Source of the DNA: Enterovibrio coralii
GTDB lineage: Bacteria > Pseudomonadota > Gammaproteobacteria > Enterobacterales > Vibrionaceae
Direction of reading: 5' to 3'
Length of the DNA stretch: 64,000 nt
Assembly (NCBI RefSeq): GCF_001559595.1
Contig: NZ_LNTY01000055.1
Span: 1 to 64,000 of the forward strand
This document shows positions 22,632 to 48,216 of this stretch, piece after piece. The translations under genes and the position numbers were made by a program. The notes beneath the pieces are model-generated. The model searched no databases. It was not told where the DNA came from and saw only the letters and a program-made list of their open reading frames with translations. Each line of letters begins with the position of its first letter. Position 1 is the first letter of the stretch.

Positions 22632-24535
22632 TTAAACCAACTCTTGATGCGCCAGGGTTTTAAAGCATTGGAACTCACTGCACTGTGACAGGTTTTTCCC
22701 CGCCTTGTTGTTCACCAGGGTCAGGAAGAGATCGTAAAGTCCCATCGCTTCTTCATAGTCGTTTTTACTCAGTGCCATAAAGAACACTAAGTAGGCTTTC
22801 TCTCCATTGCCCCAATCGATGCCCTTTGGTGCCGCCACCGTATAAACCAAGGAACGTTTTGCAAACAGCTCAATCGAGTGAGGCAAGGCAATGTGCTCGC
22901 CCATCATGGTCGAGACAATCACTTCGCGCTCCTTGAGCGAGTCGCCGTAGCCTGCTTCCACCAAGCCTTCTGTTTCCAATTGCTCGCACACCATGTCGAA
23001 CAAAGAAGTCTGGTCGATAGGCTCGTCGATATAAAGGAACTGATCGGCAGAGAAGTATTTCTCCAGCATGTAAGGACCGGTACGGTCGACCAGCACCAGC
23101 TTACCCAGCTCTTCAAGTTGATGCTGAGTCGGGAAAGGATCGAGTACAAACACCGGCACAGAAACACCGTCAGGCACGTTAGTCGTGATGATCATGTCCA
23201 CCTGTGGTTGCTGCGCCATCCGCAGTAGCTCGGCAGAGTGCACCGTCTCTAACTCCAATTGCGGGTAATGGCGGCGAATAATGGCTTCCAGCCACGTGAA
23301 ATGGCATTACCCGCATCGCAGTACAGCATGGCTTTGGGCGCGCGATGACCGAGGTAGTGGTTTCGCTCAAGCCCGACGCCGACATGGATAACCAAATAGC
23401 CAATCTCATGCTGCGTCATGCAATAACCCGTTTCGCGAATCCAGTCTGCAATGGCCGCAAGGGTAATGTCGTAGGCTAGCGGGTAGTGCTGTTTGATGTG
23501 TTCGGCGAGCGGGTTCACGGTTGCCACGTGATGCTTCACGCGCACAATCATCTTGCTGATGTGGCATTGCAAATCGCGGCGAAGTTGCATGTCTTGGCGA
23601 ATGTCGTATGGGTAGTGCCTGTGCACGTAATCCAGAATGTGATTAACGAGCTTTTCCGCCTCGATCTGACCGCGAATGGTCTGGGCGTGTTGGCTGGCGG
23701 AGATACGCGCCTGAATATTGATGGCAAGGGCTGCTATCTCATGTTCATTTGCGGGCAGCAGTGTCGGCAGCGCATCAAACATGACTCTCGCGACAGGAAG
23801 GATTTCATTCACTACATCATCCGATGGGAAGTCTTCGAGTGCTTGTCCGCTGGCAAGGCGCTGAAGGGCGACAGCCGCGTACACGGAAAGCCAGTGTAGG
23901 CCATCATCGTTGATGTAGAGCTTGTTCGCCGAGAGGATTTCACGAAAGCGGGCGGCGAAGACTTCTTGGGATTTGCTTGGAAAAAGAGTGCCAATCAGGC
24001 CGCGAGCGCGCTGGGCTTCTTTGTGTTCGGAATAGATGATTTGTGACAGCCTTGCACGAATGGCGGTTTCACTGCCTTTAAGGCGCATGCCGAGGCGCGG
24101 CTTGCTGTCGATACTAATACCAAACGGGGAGAGCTGTGCGCGCACATCCGCCATGTCACCTTGCACCGCGGCCCGGCTTAAATTCCACGTATCGGCCAAG
24201 TCTTCCAGTTTCACCCAATCATCGGCGGTCAGCAGCAGCACCTGAATTTGAACGATACGTTCTTTACTGGTGCGTGGCGCTGGGTCGGAATCGCGCGCGG
24301 CCAATTGAAACGCATCAAAGGCTTCTTGGTTATAAATTTTGAGTTGATAGCCAGAGCCGCGCTGGTGGATAAGGTGCGCGCCGTGGTTGACCATGACATT
24401 GTTTAAGGTCGCGACGTCAGTGCGAACGGTTCGGGTTGATACGTTCAGACGCTGAGCAATTTCTTCTTGGGTTAAAGGTGAGTTGGAGACGGCGTCAAGC
24501 AGACGAATAAGGCGAGGATGCGGTAATTTCGGCAT
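22632..24535 (-). CDS. BglG/MtlR-type transcriptional regulator with PRD and EIIA-like domains (apparent frameshift)
   Basis: Likely activator of the operon it ends. From the ATG at 24535 (MPKLPHPRLIRLLD, with AGGA upstream) it has two N-terminal helix-turn-helix motifs (LTQEEIAQRLNVSTRTVRTD; LEDLADTWNLSRAAVQGD), two PRD domains with conserved His (about 175-390), an EIIB-like segment, and an EIIA-like C-terminus with GEHIALPHSIE, whose His would be the phosphoacceptor. The frame is lost at about 23297; one extra base restores RWLEAIIRRHYPQLELET and 634 residues. The domain order is that of MtlR/LicR-type activators rather than RNA-binding BglG antiterminators, which lack helix-turn-helix domains. 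No EIIC partner is encoded nearby. Confidence 0.82.
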
Positions 24536-24629
24536 TGCGTATTCCTGTTGCTGCACTGCCAGTTTGCCGGGGAGGTCCAACGTAAAGGGGGAGAAGGAGT
24601 GCTGTCCCGGCAAAGCTAAAATCTTTAAT

Positions 24630-24651
24630 GCACGCAGCTTATGCTGCGTGC
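24630..24651. promoter_or_regulatory. Perfect hairpin between aldolase gene and regulator gene
   Basis: GCACGCAGC (24630-24638), loop TTAT, GCTGCGTGC (24643-24651), lying in the 126-bp gap between the KDGP aldolase stop and the regulator start. On the minus strand it is followed by ATTAAAGATTTT, a poor T-run. It could be a partial terminator that lowers regulator expression, or an mRNA-stabilizing stem. Confidence 0.5.
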
Positions 24652-24661
24652 CGACACATGC

Positions 24662-25405
24662 TTAGCGAGCAAGCAGGCGTTTAGAGATTTCTAACAGTGT
24701 TTTTACATCTTCTGGGCGGGTCTCGCCAGTCGAAGAATCGATGATAGAGCTGTACACGTGAGGTATAACTTTCTCAACGCCAGCATCCAAAGCAATTCGC
24801 AAAATCTCTTCGAAATTTGCTAGGTCTATCCCACCCGTTGGTTCCAGCCAGAAACCGTTGCGTGCACAGGCCTTTGCCACTTCTTCAAATTCGTCGCGGC
24901 TGTCCAGTCCACCCATCGGGAAATACTTAACAGAGCTGCAACCCATGTCTTGCAACATGGCAATAGCGGTATCAACTGGGACGATGGCATCTTGCATCTC
25001 TGCGCTCTTAGGACCGGTAGAGATTTTCACCATGCCAACAGTGCCTGTTGGTGAAATCAGACCGTTTACTACGGTCTCATTTTGACCCAGTGCGTTGCGG
25101 CTTTTGCCCACGCCAGTGAACACTTGGTTCACGTGCTGAGGCTGAAGAATACCCGCCAGCTCAGTCACCATGTCAGATTGTTTTGGATCGCCAGCACCCA
25201 GACCGATAGACAGGGCGTTGTTGATTTTTTCCGCACACGCTTTCATGTCTTCCACTGCGCTTGGTACGTCTGGGTAGTTCTTTGACAGCATGCCAACCAG
25301 CACGTGGCCTTCTGCCGCTTCATAAACATCCACAGCGTTTTGGTGAGAGCCAGCCAGAACGTTAAGACAAACGCGGTCAGCGATATATTTTGGGCTTAAA
25401 GACAT
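24662..25405 (-). CDS. KDGP aldolase family protein (DgaF-like)
   Basis: Predicted to cleave 2-keto-3-deoxy-6-phosphogluconate to pyruvate and glyceraldehyde-3-phosphate. The 247-residue product resembles the DgaF family of the D-glucosaminate pathway: GLGAGDPKQSDMV, GLISPTGTVGMVKISTGP, SVKYFPMGGLDSRDEF and WLEPTGGIDLANFEEI, with the Lys of VKYFPMGG a candidate Schiff-base residue. It starts 6 bp after the DgaE-like gene with AGGAG before the ATG, so the two are coupled. The exact substrate is inferred from the family and the neighbour. Confidence 0.85.
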   Translation of the reverse strand: MSLSPKYIADRVCLNVLAGSHQNAVDVYEAAEGHVLVGMLSKNYPDVPSAVEDMKACAEKINNALSIGLGAGDPKQSDMVTELAGILQPQHVNQVFTGVGKSRNALGQNETVVNGLISPTGTVGMVKISTGPKSAEMQDAIVPVDTAIAMLQDMGCSSVKYFPMGGLDSRDEFEEVAKACARNGFWLEPTGGIDLANFEEILRIALDAGVEKVIPHVYSSIIDSSTGETRPEDVKTLLEISKRLLAR

Positions 25406-25411
25406 GGTTAA

Positions 25412-26521
25412 TTACTCCTGAGTCAGCTTGGTCATGGCAGCGAGAATTTGTTCAAGTTCTTCTTTTGAAACGCTGCGGACGTCAAATTCAATGGTGCCTT
25501 CGTTGGCTTTGTAAGCGCGGCAGTAAACCGCTGGGTTACCGTTTTGCAGTTTGGCAACCGCGTCTTTGGCATTCATGCCGAAGGCGTTTGCGTCGAAATT
25601 CACTTCTGCACGGGCGATGTCGCGGCCTGCACTGTCCCACACCACACGGGAGGTGATGCCTTGCAGCGCGTTAAGACCATCGATGAATGCGCTCATCTTG
25701 TCGACCATCGCAGCGCCGGTTTCTTGCTCGCGCTCGAGGTAAAGTTCAATCGCGTGAGTCAGACCCAGAATGCCTTCTTTGCCGACTTTCATTGCGCGGC
25801 CAATGCCCATGGATTGTTGCTTCACCCACTCCACGTATTGGTGCTTACCCAGCACCAGACCGCTGGTAGGGCCTTCAATCGCTTTTGCGCCAGAGTAGAT
25901 GACCAGATCCGCACCTTGCTGGTAGTAAAGACGCAGGTCTTCTTCCGCCGCCGCATCCACAATCAGTGGTAGATCGTGTGCTTTTGCTACCTCAGCAGCG
26001 TCAGCTACGGTCAACATGCTCTTTTGCACACAATGGTGAGATTTGATGTAAAGGATGGCTGCGGTGTTAGGGTTGATGGCTGCCGCCAGTTGCGCTGCCG
26101 AACACTCGTTTGCCCAACCGGCTTCCACCAGTTTGCCGCCACCTAAGTTCACCATGGTGCCGACCGGCGCACCAAAGTTTACGTTGTGGCCTTTTGGCAT
26201 CACGATTTCAGATGGAACGTCGTGCGCATGAGCGTGCAGGTTTTCTAAGCGGTATGCGTCTCCACGTACGATCACCGCAGCCACACTTTGTGAGATACCG
26301 GCTGACGCACAAGAGACGACAACCGCGTTTTCTACGTCCAGCAAACGGGCAATGTATTCGCCAGTTTTGTTCACCAGATCTTTCATTTCGAAGTAGCTGT
26401 TAATGCCGAAGTTAACGGTCTCTACCACTTCAGGCAGTGGCGTAGACACGCCCAACGCGGTCATGCGACCAGACGCATTGATCACCTGTTTCAGGTTATA
26501 TTTTTCAAGAATTGAAGACAT
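25412..26521 (-). CDS. DgaE-like PLP-dependent ammonia lyase (SelA-related fold)
   Basis: Predicted PLP enzyme that eliminates ammonia from a 2-amino-2-deoxy sugar-acid phosphate, as DgaE does with D-glucosaminate-6-phosphate to give KDGP. The 369-residue product has the fold-type I pattern: SCASAGISQSVAAVIVRGD, Asp189 (IVDAAAEED) to contact the pyridine nitrogen, and the likely Schiff-base Lys213 in YSGAKAIEGP. Its 5' end overlaps the end of the amidohydrolase gene by 17 bp. The ammonia-lyase reaction is inferred from DgaE; selenocysteine synthase is unlikely given this context. Confidence 0.85.
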   Translation of the reverse strand: MSSILEKYNLKQVINASGRMTALGVSTPLPEVVETVNFGINSYFEMKDLVNKTGEYIARLLDVENAVVVSCASAGISQSVAAVIVRGDAYRLENLHAHAHDVPSEIVMPKGHNVNFGAPVGTMVNLGGGKLVEAGWANECSAAQLAAAINPNTAAILYIKSHHCVQKSMLTVADAAEVAKAHDLPLIVDAAAEEDLRLYYQQGADLVIYSGAKAIEGPTSGLVLGKHQYVEWVKQQSMGIGRAMKVGKEGILGLTHAIELYLEREQETGAAMVDKMSAFIDGLNALQGITSRVVWDSAGRDIARAEVNFDANAFGMNAKDAVAKLQNGNPAVYCRAYKANEGTIEFDVRSVSKEELEQILAAMTKLTQE

Positions 26522-27641
26522 GGTGAGTTTGTCCTTTTTCTGTCAGTGTCATCTCGCCGCCCACGATGGCAGCAAGAGGTGCAAAGCGCTGTTCACCGGT
26601 GCGGGTATCACCCTCGGTATCGGTGAAGGTCACTTGTGCGTGTTCAATGTTGTACAGGGTCAGGTCTGCATCGCAGCCGACAACCAGTTGGCCTTTGGTT
26701 TCAAGACGAAGTGCACGGGCAACCTTGGTGGTCACGCGTTCAATAATTTGTTCGTGGCTGAGGCCAAGGGTGAAGAACATCGACATCAGGTGTGCCAGGC
26801 CATATACCGGACCATTGATGCGGTTCTTGCAGTAAATGTCAGAGCTGATGGTGTCCGGCAAAATGCCTTGAGCAATCGACATCTCTGCCACGTCAAAGCT
26901 GAAGCTTGCGCTGCCGTGGCCAATGTCTAGCAACATGCCGCGCTCCATCGCTGCTTTGACGGCATCACGCAGCTTGCCTTCAGGCGTCAAAATGCGGTTT
27001 GGTTTGCCGTTGAAGCAGTGCGTCAGGATGTCGCCTTCGCCCAGCAGTTCAGCAATGTCGTCCAGCGTTGGTGGCGCGTTACCTACGTGAACCATTAGTG
27101 GCAGGCATCCGCATTCGCATTGCAGTGCTTTTGCAGATTTCAGCGGCGTCAGGCCGTTCTCGCCGACCACGCTGCCACTCATGCGGGCTTTCAGGCCAAC
27201 CACGAAGTCAGGGTGACGCTCCACCGCGTTTTTTGCCAAGGTCAGATCGATATCGTTTTTATCAGCCAGTTCGTTCTGACGTAGCAGACCAATGCGCGAA
27301 ATGTTCAGAAGCGCGCGTACCTCGGTTTTGCAGTTTTTCGCAATCTCTGCGAAGTCATCCACGTCATCAGCACCTGTGCTGCCTGCGTCGATAACGGTAG
27401 TGACGCCGCCAGTCACGCCAATTGCGTCTGGCTCATCATTGTAAATTGGAGAATTTGGATAGCAGTGTGTATGTCCGTCAATCCAGCCTGCGCTAACGAA
27501 GACGTCGTTGTTCAGAGTCAGCGTCTTAGTGGCTTGTGCATCGGCCAGTTCGCCGATGGCTGCAATCTTGCCGTTTTGAATGGCAATGTCTGCGCATTCG
27601 CCTGAGACAAGTCGGGCGTTTTTAATCAGGAAATCGTACAT
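26505..27641 (-). CDS. Amidohydrolase/deacetylase family metallohydrolase
   Basis: A 378-residue member of the amidohydrolase superfamily with a full two-metal site: HxH at His57/His59 (GWIDGHTHC), candidate carbamylated Lys151 (GLKARMSGS), His185 (VHVGNAPP), His208 (ILTHCFNG) and Asp268 (SSDIYCKN). It therefore looks active, probably on an N-acyl or other amide. Its place directly before a DgaE-like lyase suggests removal of the acyl group from an N-acyl amino sugar acid. In my recollection this subfamily is typed by E. faecalis EF_0837 and A. hydrophila AHA_3915; substrate unknown. Confidence 0.82.
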   Translation of the reverse strand: MYDFLIKNARLVSGECADIAIQNGKIAAIGELADAQATKTLTLNNDVFVSAGWIDGHTHCYPNSPIYNDEPDAIGVTGGVTTVIDAGSTGADDVDDFAEIAKNCKTEVRALLNISRIGLLRQNELADKNDIDLTLAKNAVERHPDFVVGLKARMSGSVVGENGLTPLKSAKALQCECGCLPLMVHVGNAPPTLDDIAELLGEGDILTHCFNGKPNRILTPEGKLRDAVKAAMERGMLLDIGHGSASFSFDVAEMSIAQGILPDTISSDIYCKNRINGPVYGLAHLMSMFFTLGLSHEQIIERVTTKVARALRLETKGQLVVGCDADLTLYNIEHAQVTFTDTEGDTRTGEQRFAPLAAIVGGEMTLTEKGQTHHVFNS

Positions 27642-27657
27642 AGGGGTATCTCGATAA

Positions 27658-27675
27658 CCCCGCCCGAAGGCGGGG
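27658..27675. promoter_or_regulatory. GC-rich intra-operon hairpin
   Basis: CCCCGCC (27658-27664), loop CGAA, GGCGGGG (27669-27675), in the 42-bp gap between the DUF4310 gene and the amidohydrolase gene. There is no T-run. A GNRA-like loop on a 7-bp GC stem suggests mRNA stabilization or a processing boundary between the membrane-protein and enzyme halves of the operon. Confidence 0.55.
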
Positions 27676-27683
27676 TAGAAGTA

Positions 27684-28331
27684 TTACAGAGCGACTGGGA
27701 ACATGGTGCCTAGTGCCATTGCGCCTAGGATTGCACCACCGGTGATTGGCTTGCCCCATACGTAGAAGATCAGCGCGCCAAGCAGAGAGCCAAGACCGAT
27801 TGGAATTGACGCACCCATTGCAGACAGGATGATTAGAGGACCCAGGAAACGGCCAGAGCTGTTACCTGCACCCATCATGACGTCAGCGCCGTAGGTAGAG
27901 TTGCTTTGGTTGATGGTGAACTTACGCGCCAGGATGATGATTGCGCCGATAGCCAGACCTGCAACCATGCCCGTTGCTAGTGCCATTGGGAAATTCTCAA
28001 CCGGGTAAGTGATGCCCGCGCCCAGCAGCAGTGCAGGGATACCCAGACCAACGCCAGTCATGATGGCACCACCGATATCCAAGATACCGACCAGTGAACC
28101 TTCAATGATACGGGCGAACAGGAAGCTTGCACCGAATGCGGCTACCGCGCCGTAAGCACCGGTATCCATACCTGCACGCAGCATAGATACGAAAGCCACT
28201 TCGTTGAATGCGCCTACGCCGTACAAGTAGTACATGTGCGTACCCGCGAATACACCGGCAGACAGCAGACCCACGATGATTGGGAAAGACCAGTCGGCGT
28301 ACCAGAAGTTATTCTTCATTTTCTCATCCAT
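27684..28331 (-). CDS. DUF4310 family membrane protein
   Basis: A 215-residue integral membrane protein with about five to six hydrophobic segments (FPIIVGLLSAGVFAGTHMYYL, AFGASFLFARIIEGSLVGIL, ALATGMVAGLAIGAIIIL, LIILSAMGASIPIGLGSLLGAL and a C-terminal glycine-rich helix). Function unknown. It lies 11 bp after the DUF4311 gene, and the two always seem to occur together, so they may form one transporter. Together they are about the size of E. coli YhfT. It could be the permease of the operon; no PTS EIIC signature is visible. Confidence 0.8.
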   Translation of the reverse strand: MDEKMKNNFWYADWSFPIIVGLLSAGVFAGTHMYYLYGVGAFNEVAFVSMLRAGMDTGAYGAVAAFGASFLFARIIEGSLVGILDIGGAIMTGVGLGIPALLLGAGITYPVENFPMALATGMVAGLAIGAIIILARKFTINQSNSTYGADVMMGAGNSSGRFLGPLIILSAMGASIPIGLGSLLGALIFYVWGKPITGGAILGAMALGTMFPVAL

Positions 28332-28342
28332 GGTAGTTCCCC

Positions 28343-29119
28343 TTATTTACCGCTCATCATGAGGTGGATGTTTTCAAGCCACATTGGAACTTCCATGTGG
28401 AAAGATTTAATCAGTTGCATGTCGAAGCCACGGAAGAAAGCACTCATTGCGAACAGCGCGATGATGGCTGCCATCATGATCTTGGTAACTTTGTTCCAGC
28501 CGCCGTCTTCTACGCCTTTACCGATCAGGATACCCAGTACCAGACCCGGTACGGCGTTACCCATGATTAGCTGAGCCAGACCACCGAAGATGGTTGCCCA
28601 GAAGCCAGATTTCTTGCCCGCTTCAATCGCTGCCAGCCAGAAAATGACAGGCATCACAGTGTTTACCAGCAGGTTTGCCGCAGGAACAAGTACCTTCACA
28701 GCCGTTACCTGAAGGGCTTCAGGAACTGCCGCTGCCGTGGTGTTAAGGAACGCAACAACCAACGCACCCAAGATGGCACAGGTGATACCCATGCGTTTTG
28801 GATCGTGCAGAGTGGTCGCCAAATCGCGGTTTTTCATCATCAGTACCGCTGCGCCCCAGTGAGGCAGTACGCGGTGGTCGATGTCTTGCGTAAACGCACC
28901 GGCAGCAACGGTTGATGCCCATGCGTTGAAGAAGAAGCCAAGGCCGAAAGAGAAGTGAGACGCAGGGTCACCTTCACAAGAGTTCAGCTCGCCCAAAGTA
29001 CGGAAAGCACCCATACCTTGTACGGTTGGTGCGTGGAACATTCGCGCTGCACCGACGCCGACACCGATGCCGACTAAGCCACCAATAATGAGGGACTTCA
29101 AAAGAATGACAGTGAACAT
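28343..29119 (-). CDS. DUF4311 domain membrane protein
   Basis: A 258-residue integral membrane protein of unknown function. It starts with a glycine-rich helix (LLKSLIIGGLVGIGVGVGAA), and has further membrane segments around residues 55-75, 110-130, 140-165, 170-200 and 210-230. The hydrophilic segment FRTLGELNSCEGDPASHF near the first helix is polar and charged and could line a substrate path. It is encoded between DUF4312 and DUF4310. I infer a two-subunit transporter, not shown. Confidence 0.8.
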   Translation of the reverse strand: MFTVILLKSLIIGGLVGIGVGVGAARMFHAPTVQGMGAFRTLGELNSCEGDPASHFSFGLGFFFNAWASTVAAGAFTQDIDHRVLPHWGAAVLMMKNRDLATTLHDPKRMGITCAILGALVVAFLNTTAAAVPEALQVTAVKVLVPAANLLVNTVMPVIFWLAAIEAGKKSGFWATIFGGLAQLIMGNAVPGLVLGILIGKGVEDGGWNKVTKIMMAAIIALFAMSAFFRGFDMQLIKSFHMEVPMWLENIHLMMSGK

Positions 29120-29138
29120 GTCATGGGTTCCTTAGAGA

Positions 29139-29438
29139 TTAACGTAAGATTTGGAAGTCAACTTGCTCCACATCGATGTAGGTAAGGCTGACGGTAACCT
29201 CCAGTTTGACGCGGCACTGGCGTCGTTCTCTGGGTAAAAAGAAGAACAGGAACTTGTCCATCGTGATCTTCTCTTCGGCTTCCAGAACCTTGACGTCTTG
29301 AGGCTCAATCCGGAGTAAGACTTTCTGATTTTCTTTCAGCAAAGTCGGTTGAATCTGGCTAAAGGCAGCAGCAAATGCCTGCTGCCTTGTTTCGCCTTTT
29401 CCACTGACGATGACTTCAGTGGTCAGCTGTTGTTTCAT
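29139..29438 (-). CDS. DUF4312 family protein
   Basis: A 99-residue soluble protein starting at ATG 29438 (MKQQLTTEVIVSGKGETRQQAF), which overlaps the stop of the SFCGS gene as ATGA. It appears to be an alpha/beta protein with an amphipathic helix (QAFAAAFSQIQPTLLKENQ) and alternating strands (VLLRIEPQDVKVLEAEEK; CRVKLEVTVSLTYIDVEQVDFQIL). It contains a FLFFFLPRER segment that may touch the membrane. Function unknown; the position suggests an accessory subunit of the DUF4310/4311 membrane pair. Confidence 0.8.
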   Translation of the reverse strand: MKQQLTTEVIVSGKGETRQQAFAAAFSQIQPTLLKENQKVLLRIEPQDVKVLEAEEKITMDKFLFFFLPRERRQCRVKLEVTVSLTYIDVEQVDFQILR

Positions 29439-29803
29439 GCACCGATACCGTGTTTCGCGATAAACGCTTTCACCAGTTTCTCGCCCAGCTCTTCTTTGTC
29501 CATGAAACCGAAGCCCAGCACGACGCAGCCTTCGTTGATTGCTGCGATACCTTCTTCGATAGAACGCATGCCGTAGCGGCACTTGTAGCCGTATTTGGTT
29601 TGTGCAGTGATTGCACCTGCACCGCCTGAGCCACAGAAAGAAATGCCCATGTGCGCTTCTTGCTGGTTCATGATGTCACCCAGCTTCATGTCCGCAGCCA
29701 TACCTGGGATCACAGTCACTTCTGCACCAGCCGCTTCTGCGCCAGCACCTACTTTTTGGCCTTTACCCATACGGTCGCCGATTACAAGTTTCAATACAGA
29801 CAT
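29435..29803 (-). CDS. Glycine-rich SFCGS family protein
   Basis: A 122-residue soluble protein named for its SFCGSGGAGA motif (about residues 55-64). The start KLVIGDRMGKGQKVGAGAE suggests a nucleotide- or phosphate-binding loop. The Cys in a glycine-rich loop recalls the phosphorylated Cys loops of some PTS EIIB proteins, and the pattern is also close to the IGACNTGAGAA segment of E. coli YhfU (DUF2620). It is 2 bp from the upstream PRD gene. Biochemical role unknown; an EIIB-like phosphotransfer role is a testable guess. Confidence 0.8.
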   Translation of the reverse strand: MSVLKLVIGDRMGKGQKVGAGAEAAGAEVTVIPGMAADMKLGDIMNQQEAHMGISFCGSGGAGAITAQTKYGYKCRYGMRSIEEGIAAINEGCVVLGFGFMDKEELGEKLVKAFIAKHGIGA

Positions 29804-29805
29804 GG

Positions 29806-30156
29806 TTATTCTCCTTTGGCAGTGCTTAGTTCGTTTTCTTTTGCCACTTCAAAGTGGACAGATAAAAGGTGTGCTTCTTCGTAAGCCAGGTTGTCCATCA
29901 AGCCGCAAACTTGTTCAGCAAGTTTCAGCGACAGGGAAGAAATCTCTTCGAACATTTCCAGCTCTAGCTCTGGCAGTGATTCGCCGCTGTGTGAGCGCCA
30001 TGCCATTGCTTTGATGTGTGTTGCCAGCATTTTTTGTTGCAGGTCATCAGGGTAGATGCCGTTTTCGCCAAGCAGCACAATCGCGCGTTCAGTTACAGAT
30101 GCACCGTGTTCCACGATTTCAGTGCTATCTGGGGTTAGGGTCGTTGCCGTTTGCAA
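29806..30156 (-). CDS. Stand-alone PRD-domain protein
   Basis: First gene of the minus-strand operon. The 116-residue product is helical and carries two His in PRD-like positions (LATHIKAMAWR and LLSVHFEVAKEN); it has no DNA- or RNA-binding domain. It starts at TTG 30156 with GGAGAG six bases upstream. PRD domains are normally phosphorylated by HPr or EIIB to control regulators. A free PRD could compete for or relay phosphate to the regulator encoded at the other end of the operon. Recollection links it to the EF_0829/AHA_3910 family. Confidence 0.75.
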   Translation of the reverse strand: MQTATTLTPDSTEIVEHGASVTERAIVLLGENGIYPDDLQQKMLATHIKAMAWRSHSGESLPELELEMFEEISSLSLKLAEQVCGLMDNLAYEEAHLLSVHFEVAKENELSTAKGE

Positions 30157-30465
30157 AGGTGTCTCTCCAGACGTTTTGTTGCGTTGAGTGAAAGATAAAG
30201 TGGAAGGGCACGTTGGAGCAGACGCTGTTTTTCCACTTCAAACTGGAAACGAGGCGGAAATTGGGGGAAATCCGGAAAAAAGTGTGAAAGGGCGCAAGAA
30301 AATTAGGGGGAATCCCCCAAAAAAACGTGATGAAAATGGCTAATGCTGCCTTTCCAGTTTGTAGACGGGAATCTGCGTGCCATCACAAAAAAGCGTTTTT
30401 ACTGGAAAATTGTTGCCTTCTGGCAATCAGTTGGTGGGAGTTTCGTCTTCAACCGCGAATAGTGA
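30157..30465. other. Divergent regulatory region between PRD operon and rpsF
   Basis: No gene. It contains the 20-bp palindrome at 30230-30249 and two related motifs, TTTCCAGTTT (30351-30360) and TTACTGGAAAA (30399-30409). A GGGGG-AAT-CCCCC stem lies at 30306-30318. The DNA left of 30300 has mixed purine-rich sequence. The rpsF promoter begins at 30466. Confidence 0.5.
30230..30249. promoter_or_regulatory. Candidate operator of the PRD/SFCGS/DUF431x operon
   Basis: TTTCCACTTCAAACTGGAAA is a 20-bp palindrome with 9-bp arms differing at one position and a CA centre. It lies 74 bp upstream of the operon start codon. The half-site TTTCCAGTTT recurs at 30351-30360, and in inverted form as TTACTGGAAA at 30399-30408. 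Binding by the operon's own helix-turn-helix PRD regulator is the natural hypothesis. Confidence 0.55.
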
Positions 30466-42345: not shown

Positions 42346-43772
<1,427 letters not shown>

Positions 43773-43797
43773 CTTGATTCCTTTTTGTCGAGAGAGG

Positions 43798-43815
43798 GGG
43801 AGGATTGCTCCTCCC
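43798..43815. promoter_or_regulatory. Hairpin between agaD and agaF
   Basis: GGGAGGA (43798-43804), loop TTGC, TCCTCCC (43809-43815). There is no T-run. It may set the ratio of IID to IIA or stabilize the upstream mRNA. Confidence 0.5.
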
Positions 43816-43866
43816 GACCTTCATACTTTTGTTTGCGTTATTGTGTGAATCAAAGAGCGTTGAGAA

Positions 43867-44751
43867 TTACAGGATGCCTGCGAAGCGGCCGACAATACCG
43901 ATGGTGACGGTGATGATGATCAGACGCACTGGGCTCCAGCCGCGTTTCACCAAGCCGAACATGCAAAGGGTGTAAACCAATGGCAGGAAAGCTGGCATCA
44001 GTTTGTCGATAACGTCTGCCTGCAGTTTGACGACCGCATCACCGGCAGTGATTTCTGCGGTAGTAGACAGGCGAACATAAGTCGCAACCAGCGCACCAAT
44101 CACCGTCATACCCACGATGGAAGCGGCGTGGCCGACTTTCTTCGTGTTGGCTTTGATCATCGGAATCGCTGCCACACCCATGTTGTAGGCGTAATGCGCC
44201 AGACCAAAGCGCAGACCAAAGTGGAATACGTTAAAGACAACGAAGAAGATAATCGCGCCCATGATGGAGCCTTGCAGCGCAAGGTCTGCACCGATACCGC
44301 CACAGATTGGTAGTAAGGTCAGCCAGAACATGGCGTCACCGATACCACCGAGTGGTGCACCGACAGCGATCTTGGTGCTTTGGATACTGTTTACGTTCTG
44401 TTTGGAACGTTCCATCGCCAAGATGATCCCCATGACGAAGGTCACCAAGAATGGGTGAGTATTGAAAAAGCCCATATGGCCGCGCATGGATTTCGCCAGA
44501 TCGCTCTTGTTGGTGTGGATCTTCTTCAGCGAAGGCAGAAGTCCGTACAACCAACCCGCAGCTTGCATACGTTCATAGTTGAACGACGCTTGTAGCAGCA
44601 GGGAACGCCATGCCATGCGGTTAATGTCTTCTTTTGTCAGCTCTGCACCGACACTTTGATCTTCATAGACGTCGCTGTTGATTTGAGAAACGGTTGGCGC
44701 GTCGTCTTTGTGGGCATTCAGATGGCCCATGGTGTTTGCATTAGATTCCAT
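43867..44751 (-). CDS. agaD: PTS mannose-family EIID (AgaD)
   Basis: Membrane subunit of the sugar PTS. The 294-residue product starts with a hydrophilic segment and continues with the IID core (DINRMAWRSLLLQASFNYERMQAAGWLYGLLPSLKKI, GVAAIPMIKANTKKVG) and a C-terminal membrane helix. It overlaps the agaW stop by 11 bp, so IIC and IID are coupled. Confidence 0.92.
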   Translation of the reverse strand: MESNANTMGHLNAHKDDAPTVSQINSDVYEDQSVGAELTKEDINRMAWRSLLLQASFNYERMQAAGWLYGLLPSLKKIHTNKSDLAKSMRGHMGFFNTHPFLVTFVMGIILAMERSKQNVNSIQSTKIAVGAPLGGIGDAMFWLTLLPICGGIGADLALQGSIMGAIIFFVVFNVFHFGLRFGLAHYAYNMGVAAIPMIKANTKKVGHAASIVGMTVIGALVATYVRLSTTAEITAGDAVVKLQADVIDKLMPAFLPLVYTLCMFGLVKRGWSPVRLIIITVTIGIVGRFAGIL

Positions 44752-45511
44752 CTTCCAGCTCCTCTTTGATTGGTGCGCTTTGCTCTGGTTTGCGCATAAA
44801 GTCGATCAGGGCGATAGCCAGTGCGGCTGCTGCAATGGCCAGCATTGGCAGTTGAAGCCAAGCCGCGCCAACGAAACCAAGAATGAAGTAAGGGATGTAG
44901 GCGTTTTTCATCATGATCTTCATGAGAACCGCAAAACCGATCGCTGGCATCATGCCGCCCGCAACACCTAGACCGTCGATCAGTTGTTGTGGCAGGGCTT
45001 CAACCATTGGCTTGGCGTGCTCGGCACCGAAGAAAATCGGGAGGAAGGCACACAAGAAATAGAAGGAGCCCAGTACCGCTAGCGCAAAATAGTTAACTTT
45101 TTCAATGCCGTCTGTGTCAGCTTCGTCTGCCATCTGGTCACATTTAGACATAACAGGCGACATGGCCGAGAACAGGAAGGTGATACCCATCTGTACGGCA
45201 ACTGCAAATGGCACTGCGATACCGACAGCGACGTTTGGCTCCACATTGGTGGTGATAGCGAACGTTGCACCCACAATGGTTCCGATGATGACGTTAGGTG
45301 GCTGAGCACCGGCTAAAGGTGCCAGACCCATCCAGACCAGTTCCAAGGTACCGCCAACCAAAATACCCGTTTCCAGATCGCCCAAGATCAGGCCAACCAG
45401 AGGACCGAGCACCACAGGTCGGTGCATGTGAGTGAGACCGTTAAAGAGGTCGAGACCGGCGATGAACGCCAGGATCCCGAGCATCAATGCTTGCAAGAAA
45501 CTGATTTCCAT
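44741..45511 (-). CDS. agaW: PTS mannose-family EIIC (AgaW)
   Basis: Sugar-translocating membrane subunit. The 256-residue product is largely hydrophobic, with the IIC family pattern GLDLFNGLTHMHRPVVLGPLVGLILGDLETGILVGGTLELVWMG-type substrate region near the N-terminus. It lies 12 bp after agaV. Substrate assignment to amino-galactose sugars rests on the AgaS, AgaY and AgaR neighbours. Confidence 0.92.
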   Translation of the reverse strand: MEISFLQALMLGILAFIAGLDLFNGLTHMHRPVVLGPLVGLILGDLETGILVGGTLELVWMGLAPLAGAQPPNVIIGTIVGATFAITTNVEPNVAVGIAVPFAVAVQMGITFLFSAMSPVMSKCDQMADEADTDGIEKVNYFALAVLGSFYFLCAFLPIFFGAEHAKPMVEALPQQLIDGLGVAGGMMPAIGFAVLMKIMMKNAYIPYFILGFVGAAWLQLPMLAIAAAALAIALIDFMRKPEQSAPIKEELEDGI

Positions 45512-45523
45512 TACAGTTACTCC

Positions 45524-45997
45524 TTACAGAAGTTTGAAGATGTCGGTAGCAGGTTCCGTAGGAACACCTTGGACATAACATTCCACGCCTGCTTCTTTCA
45601 GGGCGGTGAAGGCATTGATGTCGTTAGCGTCAACGGAGACAGTTTTGTGGATCTGATTTTTCCCCTCAGCAAAGTGCATGTTGCCGACATTGATCCGGTC
45701 AATCGGCACACCACCTCTGACTAAGGCAAGGAAATCGGTGGGGGTTTTACACACCAGCAGGATCTTTTGGCGATCCGCGGCTTTGTGGATGGTGTCTATG
45801 GTTTTTTGCACCGTCCAAAAACGAATGGCGATCCCGTCAGCCAGCACCATTTCCATCAGGTTTTGCTGGATCTGATCGTCGGCGACTTCATCGTTGACCA
45901 CGACAATGATGTTGGCGCCTGCAAAGCCGACCCACTGCACGCCTACCTGGCCGTGCACAAGGCGTTCGTCAATGCGACTAAGTACGATATTTGGCAT
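45524..45997 (-). CDS. agaV: PTS mannose-family EIIB (AgaV)
   Basis: Phosphoryl carrier between EIIA and the sugar. The 157-residue product begins PNIVLSRIDERLVHGQVGVQWVG, where the His of LVHGQV (His15) is the phosphorylation site of this family. It follows agaS by 23 bp and begins the PTS block. Confidence 0.93.
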   Translation of the reverse strand: MPNIVLSRIDERLVHGQVGVQWVGFAGANIIVVVNDEVADDQIQQNLMEMVLADGIAIRFWTVQKTIDTIHKAADRQKILLVCKTPTDFLALVRGGVPIDRINVGNMHFAEGKNQIHKTVSVDANDINAFTALKEAGVECYVQGVPTEPATDIFKLL

Positions 45998-46020
45998 GAT
46001 GAAACTCCTTAACCTGATGA

Positions 46021-47180
46021 TTAATGGTGACTAAACGGATAAATGGTGACGCCTTGAACCACGCGGTTTACTTCGCCGGTTGGGCAAGGGTTATCTGGGC
46101 TGTAACCCAACTGCAGTGACTTCGACATGGCGAGCATTTGGGCGAAAACCACGTACGGGAAGGTCAACCACACATCCGAAAACGCTGTGTCTGAAACGGA
46201 AACCACGTCACCATCAAGACCAGCAGGATTACCTACTGTCAGAGCAAGTTGGTGCATGGCCTGGCTGTTGGCATGTATCTCGCGATACATGTCTATGTCG
46301 TATTGCTGGGTGTAGCTGTCTGAGGAGATGAACTGAATAACCAAGGTCTGTTCATCAATCATGAATTTCGGGCCATGACGAAAACCAAGCGATGACTCAA
46401 ATGTCGTGGCGACTTGCCCTGCGCTGAGCTCGAGCGACTTCAACGATGACTCGCGTGCGACACCGGCCAAACCGCCGCTGCCAAGGATCACCAGACGTTG
46501 ATAGTCTTTGTCCGCCAGGCTATTGGCTGTGTGGGTCCATTCTGTCATGCCCGTTTCGACCACTGTCGCGATGCTGTCGACGCGCTGAGAAAAGGTATCT
46601 CTAGGGATGCGGCCTATCAGTGCCATGGCGGCAAGAGTCATGCAGGTAAAGCTTGATGTCATGGCAAAGCTCTTGTCGTTAGAACCTTCAGGCATCAGAT
46701 GACACAGGGCATTGTCGTGTGTCAGTGCGTAGCGGTAGAGTTCGCCTTGCTCATTACAGGTAAGGATCAGATGCCAGAGGTTATTCACGACCTGATCGGC
46801 GATGGTGACAGCGGCGACACTCTCAGGGCTGTTACCTGAGCGAGCAAAAGACACTAACAAAGTTGGAACGTTGGCATCGAGGTATTCGGTGGGATTGGAC
46901 ACAATATCTGTGGTGGCAACAGCGCGCGCGTCCATACCTTGGGTACGAAGCCAAGGGGCGAGTGCGTCACCCGCGTAAGCGGATGTGCCAGCACCGGTAA
47001 GCAAAACACGAAGCGTTGATTGAGCGAAAATGGGAGCAAGAAACGCGTTGTCGTTTGCGTCTCGGTTTGCCAGTACAACGGCGAGCTGACGCCAGAGGTT
47101 TGGTTGCTGAGCAATTTCAGTGGCGGTGTATTCTGCGCCGTGTTGAGCCAGCCATTCCGCGCTGTAGCTGGGTAATTCAT
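46021..47180 (-). CDS. agaS: SIS-domain amino-sugar isomerase/deaminase AgaS (probable N-terminal frameshift)
   Basis: Predicted galactosamine-6-phosphate deaminase/isomerase producing tagatose-6-phosphate and ammonia. Two SIS domains are visible (LLTGAGTSAYAGD, SFARSGNSPESV; LGSGGLAGVARESSLKSLELS, FRHGPKFM). The open frame reaches a GTG at 47244 and an ATG at 47223 with no good ribosome site. In another frame an ATG at 47180 has AGGAAG five bases upstream. Adding one C in the CCC at 47170-47172 joins it to the AgaS frame as MNYPSYSAEWLAQ, giving 386 residues. I prefer this start; without the added base the start is 47223. Confidence 0.88.
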
Positions 47181-47442
47181 GGTGTCTTCCTCGGTCATTC
47201 TTCTCGCTGGCAATCGCCGGCATCACATCGAATATCGCGGTCACTGAGGCCGCATCTTGTTATGTGTTATCGAGGTAGGTGACGTTCACGGGAACGGTCT
47301 GCCTCCGCATGCCAAAGACAAGATCCTTGGCTGGGATAGCCAGATTGAGTGGGAAGCACGGAATGGCGTTATGTTTCCATTACGTGTTGCTGCCAGGCGT
47401 TTCCTGTGCAGGCGAGAGCAAGAGGGCGAACCCAATCAGTGT

Positions 47443-48216
47443 TTAGTTGTCCTGATCGGCGATGATGACGTCTACACCCATGGTGGTCAGTGCCTGTACA
47501 TACTCGTTCGGGATCCGGCTATCGGTAATCAACTTATCGATACCCCCGGCGTGGCGGATCATGCAGAAGCTTTTGCGACCAAATTTGCTGGCATCGGTTA
47601 CCGCGATAACCTCTCGAGCGACGTCGCACATCACACGGTTGATGTGTGCTTCGCCTTCGTTTGGCGTGGTAATACCTGCATTCAGGTCGAAACCATCTAC
47701 ACCCAGAAACAGCTTGTCGAATCGGTAGTGCTTCAACAGCTGTTCACCTGCCGGGCCATGAAGCGAGAAGGACTGGCGTCGAAGTGTTCCCCCGGCCACC
47801 ATGACTTCAATGTTGTCATAGCTGGCGAGGTCGTAGGCAATGTTGAGCGAGTTTGTCATCACGACCAGTCCGTTTTTCTCCGCTAGGTGGCGGGTGATTT
47901 TTGCGGTGGTCGAGCCTGAATCGAGAATGATGGCATCACCGTCACGCACTAGCTCGGCGGCCTTGGCTGCAATGCGTGATTTGATGTCGGCGAACATGCG
48001 GCCTTTGTCTTGCACCGGCTGGTCAAAAGCAAAATGTCGATTGACCATGGCACCGCCGTAACAGCGCACTATGCAGCCTTTTTTCTCAAGGTAGTTCAGG
48101 TCATTTCTAATCGTCACGGTAGACACGTTAAAGCGGAGGGACAGGTCCTCAACCTTGACGGTATTGTTCATTCGAGCAAGCTCGACGATCTGTTCTCTGC
48201 GTTCTACTGTGGACAT
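47443..48216 (-). CDS. agaR: DeoR-family repressor AgaR
   Basis: Sugar-phosphate-responsive repressor of the aga genes. The 257-residue product has the DeoR helix-turn-helix (ERREQIVELARMNNTVKVEDLSLRFNVSTVTIRNDLNYLEKKG) and the sugar-phosphate effector domain with LDSGSTTAKI, TNSLNIAYDL and GVDGFDLNAGITTP. The 262-bp gap to agaS probably holds the aga promoter. Several CTTTC/GAAAG inverted motifs upstream of agaR suggest autoregulation. Confidence 0.92.
   Translation of the reverse strand: MSTVERREQIVELARMNNTVKVEDLSLRFNVSTVTIRNDLNYLEKKGCIVRCYGGAMVNRHFAFDQPVQDKGRMFADIKSRIAAKAAELVRDGDAIILDSGSTTAKITRHLAEKNGLVVMTNSLNIAYDLASYDNIEVMVAGGTLRRQSFSLHGPAGEQLLKHYRFDKLFLGVDGFDLNAGITTPNEGEAHINRVMCDVAREVIAVTDASKFGRKSFCMIRHAGGIDKLITDSRIPNEYVQALTTMGVDVIIADQDN

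Follow-up and report, generated by a model that had tools for sequence, protein, structure and literature searches.

We analyzed a 64,000-nucleotide window of Enterovibrio coralii contig NZ_LNTY01000055.1 and propose, at roughly even odds (about 0.5), that the operon at 22632-30156 is an inducible system that takes up and degrades an N-acyl-D-glucosaminate, N-acetyl-D-glucosaminate (GlcNAc1A) being the most likely one, with phosphorylation linked to the phosphotransferase system (PTS). The operon sets known enzymes in a new arrangement, beside an uncharacterised module made of DUF4311, DUF4310, DUF4312 and SFCGS proteins, which is very probably the importer. According to this proposal, DUF4311 and DUF4310 would make up the channel in the membrane, DUF4312 and SFCGS would be its partner subunits, and the cargo would acquire a phosphate at C6 during entry or directly afterwards, at the expense of PTS phosphate. 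The amidohydrolase, judging by its family, would take off the acyl group. A DgaE-type lyase would then convert glucosaminate-6-phosphate to 2-keto-3-deoxygluconate (KDG)-6-phosphate, and a PF07071 aldolase would cleave this to pyruvate and glyceraldehyde-3-phosphate, as family membership and an exchange between operons suggest for both. An MtlR-type PRD/EIIB/EIIA activator and a free PRD protein would read PTS phosphorylation, the activator presumably working from a TTTCC-N10-GGAAA palindrome recognized by its conservation. Four protein families of no known function, present in hundreds of species (469 DUF4310 stretches), would thereby gain a role, possibly in a new transport mechanism.

Eight genes, from the free PRD gene to the KDG-6-phosphate (KDGP) aldolase gene, lie on the minus strand, and the regulator gene is the ninth. 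They are listed here in order of transcription:

29806..30156, minus strand: free PRD-domain protein, TTG start; TIGR03582 over cut-off
29435..29803, minus strand: SFCGS protein with a conserved Cys57; PF14272/TIGR03577 over cut-offs
29139..29438, minus strand: DUF4312 protein, small and soluble-looking; PF14189/TIGR03578 over cut-offs
28343..29119, minus strand: DUF4311 membrane protein; PF14188/TIGR03580 over cut-offs
27684..28331, minus strand: DUF4310 membrane protein; PF14187/TIGR03579 over cut-offs
26505..27641, minus strand: amidohydrolase/deacetylase family metallohydrolase, EF_0837 type; TIGR03583 over cut-off
25412..26521, minus strand: DgaE-family pyridoxal phosphate (PLP) ammonia lyase; TIGR01437 over cut-off
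24662..25405, minus strand: KDGP aldolase; PF07071/TIGR03581/NF047796 over cut-offs
23249..24535, minus strand: regulator, first piece, with HTH, Mga and PRD parts and the beginning of an EIIB-like stretch, where the frame breaks off
22632..23258, minus strand: regulator, second piece, in another frame, with the rest of the EIIB-like stretch and an EIIA domain (PF00359) with its conserved histidine

Gaps of 2, 19, 11, 42 and 6 bp and overlaps of 4 and 17 bp join the genes, and 126 bp separate the aldolase gene from the ATG at 24535, taken as the regulator start. The open reading frame (ORF) coordinates bear out the order, strand and tight spacing with two overlaps put forward in the original prediction, which was made from the sequence alone, and hidden Markov model searches placed every product in its claimed family. 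Its nine-gene operon stands for eight genes; the ninth occupies two frames and has no single ORF, a split that the prediction had missed. The Pfam PRD model matched the free PRD protein only below the Pfam cut-off. ORF and family searches detected no gene for a kinase, EIIC or ABC permease within the operon, an absence that had been predicted and that holds in close relatives.

We scanned 84,980 species genomes, obtained 469 confirmed DUF4310 stretches and kept the best 80, which are the nearest relatives and not a random draw. They come from Vibrionaceae, Aeromonas, Yersinia, Serratia, other Enterobacterales and Chromobacterium. The eight-gene order was kept in 78 of the 80, the other two (L064 and L086) lying on truncated contigs, so that the neighborhood comparison agreed with the prediction; the shared order is more than chance. 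Identity was 78-93% for DUF4311 (25 relatives) and 81-92% for DUF4310 (27 relatives).

Enzymes and the exchange of a lyase-aldolase pair

The enzymes scored well above their family cut-offs: 585.5 versus 385.3 bits for the lyase (TIGR01437), 346.1 versus 26.7 (PF07071) and 376.7 versus 300 bits (NF047796) for the aldolase, and 537.5 versus 432.15 bits for the amidohydrolase (TIGR03583). The closest solved chains were 7lc0, a D-glucosaminate-6-phosphate ammonia lyase, for the lyase; 3lm7, 3nzr and 3m0z for the aldolase; and 8wzy and 2ics for the amidohydrolase. These families agree with the predicted order of deacylation, deamination and cleavage.

A genome that carries two related operons (G603) bears on the intermediate. 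One contig holds a full DUF operon (L186); another (L184) encodes a LevR-type regulator, EIIA, EIIB, EIIC, EIID, a lyase and an aldolase, as in the dga type. The lyase-aldolase DNA of the two operons was 99.2% identical over 1,843 aligned columns, with 7 mismatches and 8 gap openings, and the proteins were 99.7% (DgaE) and 97.1% (aldolase) identical. A dga operon in another genome (G166) encodes an EIIC with 83% identity to that of L184 and a lyase with only 40% identity to the L184 enzyme; this G166 lyase exceeds the cut-off of NF047797, the model for D-glucosaminate-6-phosphate ammonia lyase (710.9 versus 600 bits). The simplest reading of these identities is that the pair of the DUF operon replaced the native pair in L184. 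Such a replacement would mean that the pair accepts the PTS product, and D-glucosaminate-6-phosphate is most likely what it handles. The exchange thus backs the glucosaminate-6-phosphate type of intermediate that had been predicted.

In Enterococcus faecalis a second dgaEF copy presumably lies beside a mannose-type PTS. The duplication in this species is a published parallel to the exchange in G603: the available text of one report calls ef_0839 and ef_2975 'strictly identical' (PMC2912369), and that of another gives dgaEF as duplicated in 97.5-100% of the strains analyzed (PMC7396535).

The uptake module and the source of phosphate

We then compared loci in which the amidohydrolase-lyase-aldolase trio occurs without the DUF module. 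Matching plasmid records numbered 217 for the amidohydrolase (5 examined), 195 for the lyase (4 examined) and 14 for the aldolase; these 14 contain all the trio loci discussed here, two near-duplicates being left out. The trio is accompanied by a PfkB kinase and a GntP permease in Priestia megaterium; by EIIC, MupG and a PfkB kinase in Niallia; and by lactose/cellobiose-type PTS parts, MupG and a PfkB kinase on a Clostridioides difficile plasmid. None of the 80 DUF loci, two of them truncated, encodes such a sugar kinase when searched with four kinases as BLAST queries or as a profile, a search confined to the cassette; it returned solely three chance-like stretches of 22-41 residues. A Lacticaseibacillus paracasei locus combines a mannose-type PTS with lyase and aldolase; no amidohydrolase is listed there, and about 2.2 kb after the aldolase are unannotated. 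A division of lyase phosphate sites between kinase-bearing and kinase-free loci was tried and rejected, as the Niallia and Priestia enzymes differ C-terminally and those of C. difficile and E. faecalis do not.

To our knowledge, Bartonella normally has regulatory PTS proteins only. Two near-identical Bartonella plasmids encode an HPr-enzyme I fusion after the cassette, which therefore brings its phosphate source along; the fusion could supply the regulator, the transporter or the two together. Taken together, the lack of a kinase from DUF-module loci and this fusion make it probable that the module imports its cargo and that phosphorylation precedes the lyase step. Of several readings, PTS-type phosphorylation is the best supported.

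Several findings weigh against it. The window lyase falls below the NF047797 cut-off (380.8 versus 600 bits). The kinase rule is not clean, because the larger E. faecalis locus has EIIC, MupG and a PfkB kinase besides the DUF module; in its regulator no EIIA domain was detected, and the locus lacks the palindrome. The Bartonella fusion might supply only the regulator. Phosphorylation of the product after the lyase by a chromosomal KDG kinase is possible, as described for the ong pathway in the available text of PMC9537276. Profile comparisons did not relate DUF4310 or DUF4311 to EII-Sor, EIIC-GAT or YhfT, and no PDB chain matched either. SFCGS was considered as an EIIB, given a similar Cys-Gly-rich loop, and rejected when hhalign, with weak positive controls, gave 0.1-0.4% against both EIIB and the EIIB-like stretch of the regulators.

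Alternatively, the module could import the free sugar acid in an ordinary way, ion-driven or facilitated, with the amidohydrolase and lyase acting on unphosphorylated substrate, a KDG kinase elsewhere in the genome making KDG-6-phosphate and the PRD parts serving regulation only. The ong pathway runs in this way with OngB, OngC and KdgK, as far as the accessible text describes it (PMC9537276); the Priestia trio comes with a GntP symporter and a kinase, and homology to enzymes II was not found. This reading is nonetheless rather unlikely, given that the lyase-aldolase pair can stand in for that of a mannose-PTS operon, that the examined DUF-only cassettes have no kinase, that the EIIA histidine is conserved in 89 of 90 regulators and that the Bartonella cassette carries HPr-enzyme I along.

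The original prediction had also suggested that the module itself phosphorylates its cargo, which found no support: SFCGS showed no relation to EIIB, and DUF4310 and DUF4311 none to the two EIIC families compared, hhalign values for the three proteins against EIIB/EIIC being 0.1-0.4% with positive controls that were weak too, at about 10% (10.6% for the regulator's EIIB-like stretch against EIIB and 10.0% for the free PRD protein against the regulator PRD). DUF4311 and DUF4310 were also tried as a split YhfT, whose order seemed to suit; the real scores lay within the shuffled range, and for DUF4310 alone 2 and 7 of 60 shuffles scored as high against YhfT. As mutual homologues, the two membrane proteins showed no relation either.

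SFCGS is probably a divergent protein of RpiB/LacAB fold. RpiB/LacAB models from two libraries matched 25-29 of 30 SFCGS members over residues 40-116 (best E ~1e-3 to 1e-4), and hhalign against RpiB gave 21% with a score of 25.8, placing Cys57, conserved in 93 of 93 sequences, on the RpiB cysteine. That score topped 60 of 60 column shuffles (maximum 15.7) and, narrowly, 60 of 60 block shuffles (maximum 24.8). The window protein scored below the curated cut-offs (13.9 versus 24.7 bits for RpiB and 17.5 versus 168.2 for TIGR02133), and a PDB profile search returned no RpiB chain at E <=5.

The matches to RpiB-type models and the retained catalytic-type cysteine could instead mean that SFCGS and DUF4312 are an isomerase or epimerase and its partner, adding a step before the lyase and taking no part in transport. 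We regard this as improbable, since the RpiB matches lie far under curated cut-offs, glycine-rich models that are unrelated match almost as frequently (DUF1685 in 22 of 30) and the SFCGS and DUF4312 genes are always on the membrane-gene side of the hairpin described below in loci with the full order. Returning to uptake with phosphorylation, we tentatively raise the possibility that DUF4311/4310, DUF4312 and SFCGS constitute a phosphorylating transporter of a new class without sequence kinship to the known PTS enzymes II. In it, EIIB would be replaced by a protein of RpiB fold whose cysteine is invariant, and EIIA would sit on the regulator. Searches of open-licence full texts returned nothing relevant on DUF4310, DUF4311, DUF4312, SFCGS, EF0837 or AHA_3915.

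Regulator, operator-like palindrome and hairpin

We take the layout of MtlR-type PRD regulators to be HTH-Mga-PRD-EIIB-like-EIIA, the same as in the ninth gene; what sets the operon apart is a palindrome of its own and a second, free PRD protein at its head. Among the kept relatives, 77 extend to the regulator gene, and 76 of these have it as a single ORF, 634-677 aa long; in one relative (L015), both pieces from the window align with one ORF, at 92% and 94%. With the activator gene in two frames, induction may be impaired in the window strain. The remaining regulator, from Mixta theicola (L071, 14879-16815), is likewise broken, into 595 and 73 aa.

Histidine and cysteine positions of the PRD, EIIA and EIIB-like parts were conserved in alignments of 90-93 sequences that include near-duplicates, the sets of 93 also counting the window itself. 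The regulator PRD histidines were present in 90 of 90 sequences and both histidines of the free PRD protein in 93 of 93. The single exception to the EIIA histidine is E. faecalis, and the EIIB-like cysteine was found in 84 of 90, with serine in L108-L113. The operon thus encodes an EIIA domain with its histidine, carried on the regulator and not on a separate EII protein.

Three further features bear on expression:

30230..30249, no strand assigned: operator-like palindrome TTTCCAGTTTGAAGTGGAAA, core TTTCC-N10-GGAAA, identified by conservation
30192..30197, minus strand: putative -10 element TATCTT, 32 nt downstream of the palindrome, with no good -35
27657..27676, minus strand: hairpin between the DUF4310 and amidohydrolase genes, with an 8-bp perfect stem, a TTCG loop and no long T run

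The palindrome TTTCCAnTTnnAAnTGGAAA lies ~70-230 bp upstream of the PRD gene and occurred without mismatch in 51 of 92 loci and with <=3 mismatches in 88; the core was present in 91. These 92 loci contain near-duplicates (for instance, L024 and L115 are apparently the same contig, and L010 and L014 are near-identical plasmids). By comparison, 19 of 2,601 control windows had a site at <=3 mismatches. The operon palindrome is the sole site at <=1 mismatch in the 5.5 Mb window genome, so the regulator probably serves this operon alone. TATCTT was conserved in five of six aligned upstream regions, and its position suggests that the palindrome is an activator site.

A perfect stem of at least 7 bp recurred at the DUF4310-amidohydrolase junction in 50 of 73 loci, compared with 6 of 70 at the DUF4312-DUF4311 junction, in a count that skipped junctions shorter than 25 or longer than ~260 bases. 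The stem-loop differs in sequence among loci and may set separate levels for module and enzymes.

Substrate, distribution and related systems

The favoured substrate is GlcNAc1A, the end product of chitin oxidation by lytic polysaccharide monooxygenases (LPMOs). The exchange with a dga-type operon points to a D-glucosaminate skeleton, the amidohydrolase to an N-acyl form, and a lactonase, found before the regulator in 30 of the 80 relatives (PF10282, assigned through a Klebsiella relative), suits a C1-oxidised sugar. Three AA10 LPMO genes are present in the window genome. In a sample of 394 genomes of the order, LPMO genes occurred in 28 of the 63 with DUF4310 versus 78 of the 331 others (odds ratio 2.6, p 0.001, kinship ignored). 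This association is modest and, by family, uneven (genomes with DUF4310/LPMO/both: f88 17/19/17, f4 24/10/8, f1 3/27/2, f77 1/2/1, f90 18/0/0); none of the 18 carriers in f90 has an AA10 LPMO. Both points speak against a chitin origin, and LPMO linkage was rejected as proof of it. A narrow combined-term search of open-licence full texts gave no match on N-acetylglucosaminate.

It is possible, if doubtful, that the module imports a different N-acylated 2-amino sugar acid not derived from chitin, either another isomer or a disaccharide aldonate. The lack of LPMOs from all f90 carriers would fit this, a lactonase would suit any C1-oxidised sugar, and MupG with EIIC in Firmicutes loci points to phospho-disaccharides there; the exchangeable dga-type partner operon, on the other hand, indicates the D-glucosaminate configuration. 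As a separate observation, one genome (G609, L118/L119) has an AA10 LPMO gene ~20 kb from the cassette, at a distance similar in several relatives, which may be plain synteny.

Should GlcNAc1A be the substrate, the operon would fill a gap stated for Aeromonas: in the available text of one study, ong genes were sought in A. rivuli and A. bestiarum and the route was not confirmed (PMC11653859), and the genome of the A. rivuli type strain, DSM 22539, has the whole operon (L031). The ong cluster of Pseudoalteromonas prydzensis shares deacetylation, deamination to KDG and KDG-6-phosphate with the proposed pathway (PMC9537276, PMC12017989). As described in the accessible parts of these reports, it differs in its OngB D-aminoacylase-like enzyme, OngIT symporter of the SSS family, KdgK acting after the lyase and RidA protein, and in having neither PRD control nor a first phosphorylation. 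The gene families of the window operon are different ones, with no OngB-type D-aminoacylase, SSS transporter or KdgK in the cluster. If the phosphorylating-transporter reading is true, the operon would handle chitin-LPMO products in Aeromonas, Serratia, Vibrionaceae and other carriers, as a PTS-style counterpart of ong.

The Salmonella dgaABCDEF operon shares a DgaE-family lyase and a PF07071 aldolase following PTS-linked uptake under PRD control (available text of PMC4987338); it has a mannose-family EIIABCD in place of the DUF module and a LevR-type sigma-54 activator, and the dga loci examined here, unlike the window operon, have no amidohydrolase. The E. coli K-12 yhf operon (yhfSTU-php-yhfWXYZ) likewise combines one membrane protein, a hydrolase and a PLP enzyme. 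Its YhfY matched the free PRD profile (hhalign 60%, E 9e-5), and YhfU is a small Cys/Gly-rich protein whose family, DUF2620, weakly matches 9 of 30 SFCGS members; the enzymes differ, however, YhfT has no significant relation to DUF4311/4310, and yhf is likewise uncharacterised. Two YhfT-type loci occur in the window genome (L206 and L207, on contigs C50 and C34), one with YhfU and the other with Php- and YhfY-like genes.

In the sampled order, PF07071 exceeded its cut-off in 63 genomes, with six more below it, and these 63 are identical to the 63 with DUF4310. Two of them are partial (G323 and G334); in G334 the cassette has decayed (L116), with mere pieces of amidohydrolase, aldolase and regulator. 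In Aeromonas caviae KAM479 (L013), the DUF4310 match covers only residues 1-41 and the aldolase match only residues 84-246, their record positions overlap, and the enzyme genes between them look deleted. None of 32 pattern matches on viral contigs encodes a relative, and E. coli genomes gave no DNA match to 24662-28331. NCBIfam model names bear out the link to E. faecalis EF_0829-EF_0839 and Aeromonas hydrophila AHA_3910-3917. The KDGP aldolase of the E. faecalis locus (L011, 14731-15487) comes out as two ORFs and has no entry in the gene table.

The operon is flanked on the other strand by genes that we take to be rlmB-like and rpsF-like. A second amino-sugar-type locus lies on the minus strand of the window at 42346-48216, where a class II aldolase, EIID-AGA, EII-Sor, a SIS-domain protein and a DeoR regulator are encoded.

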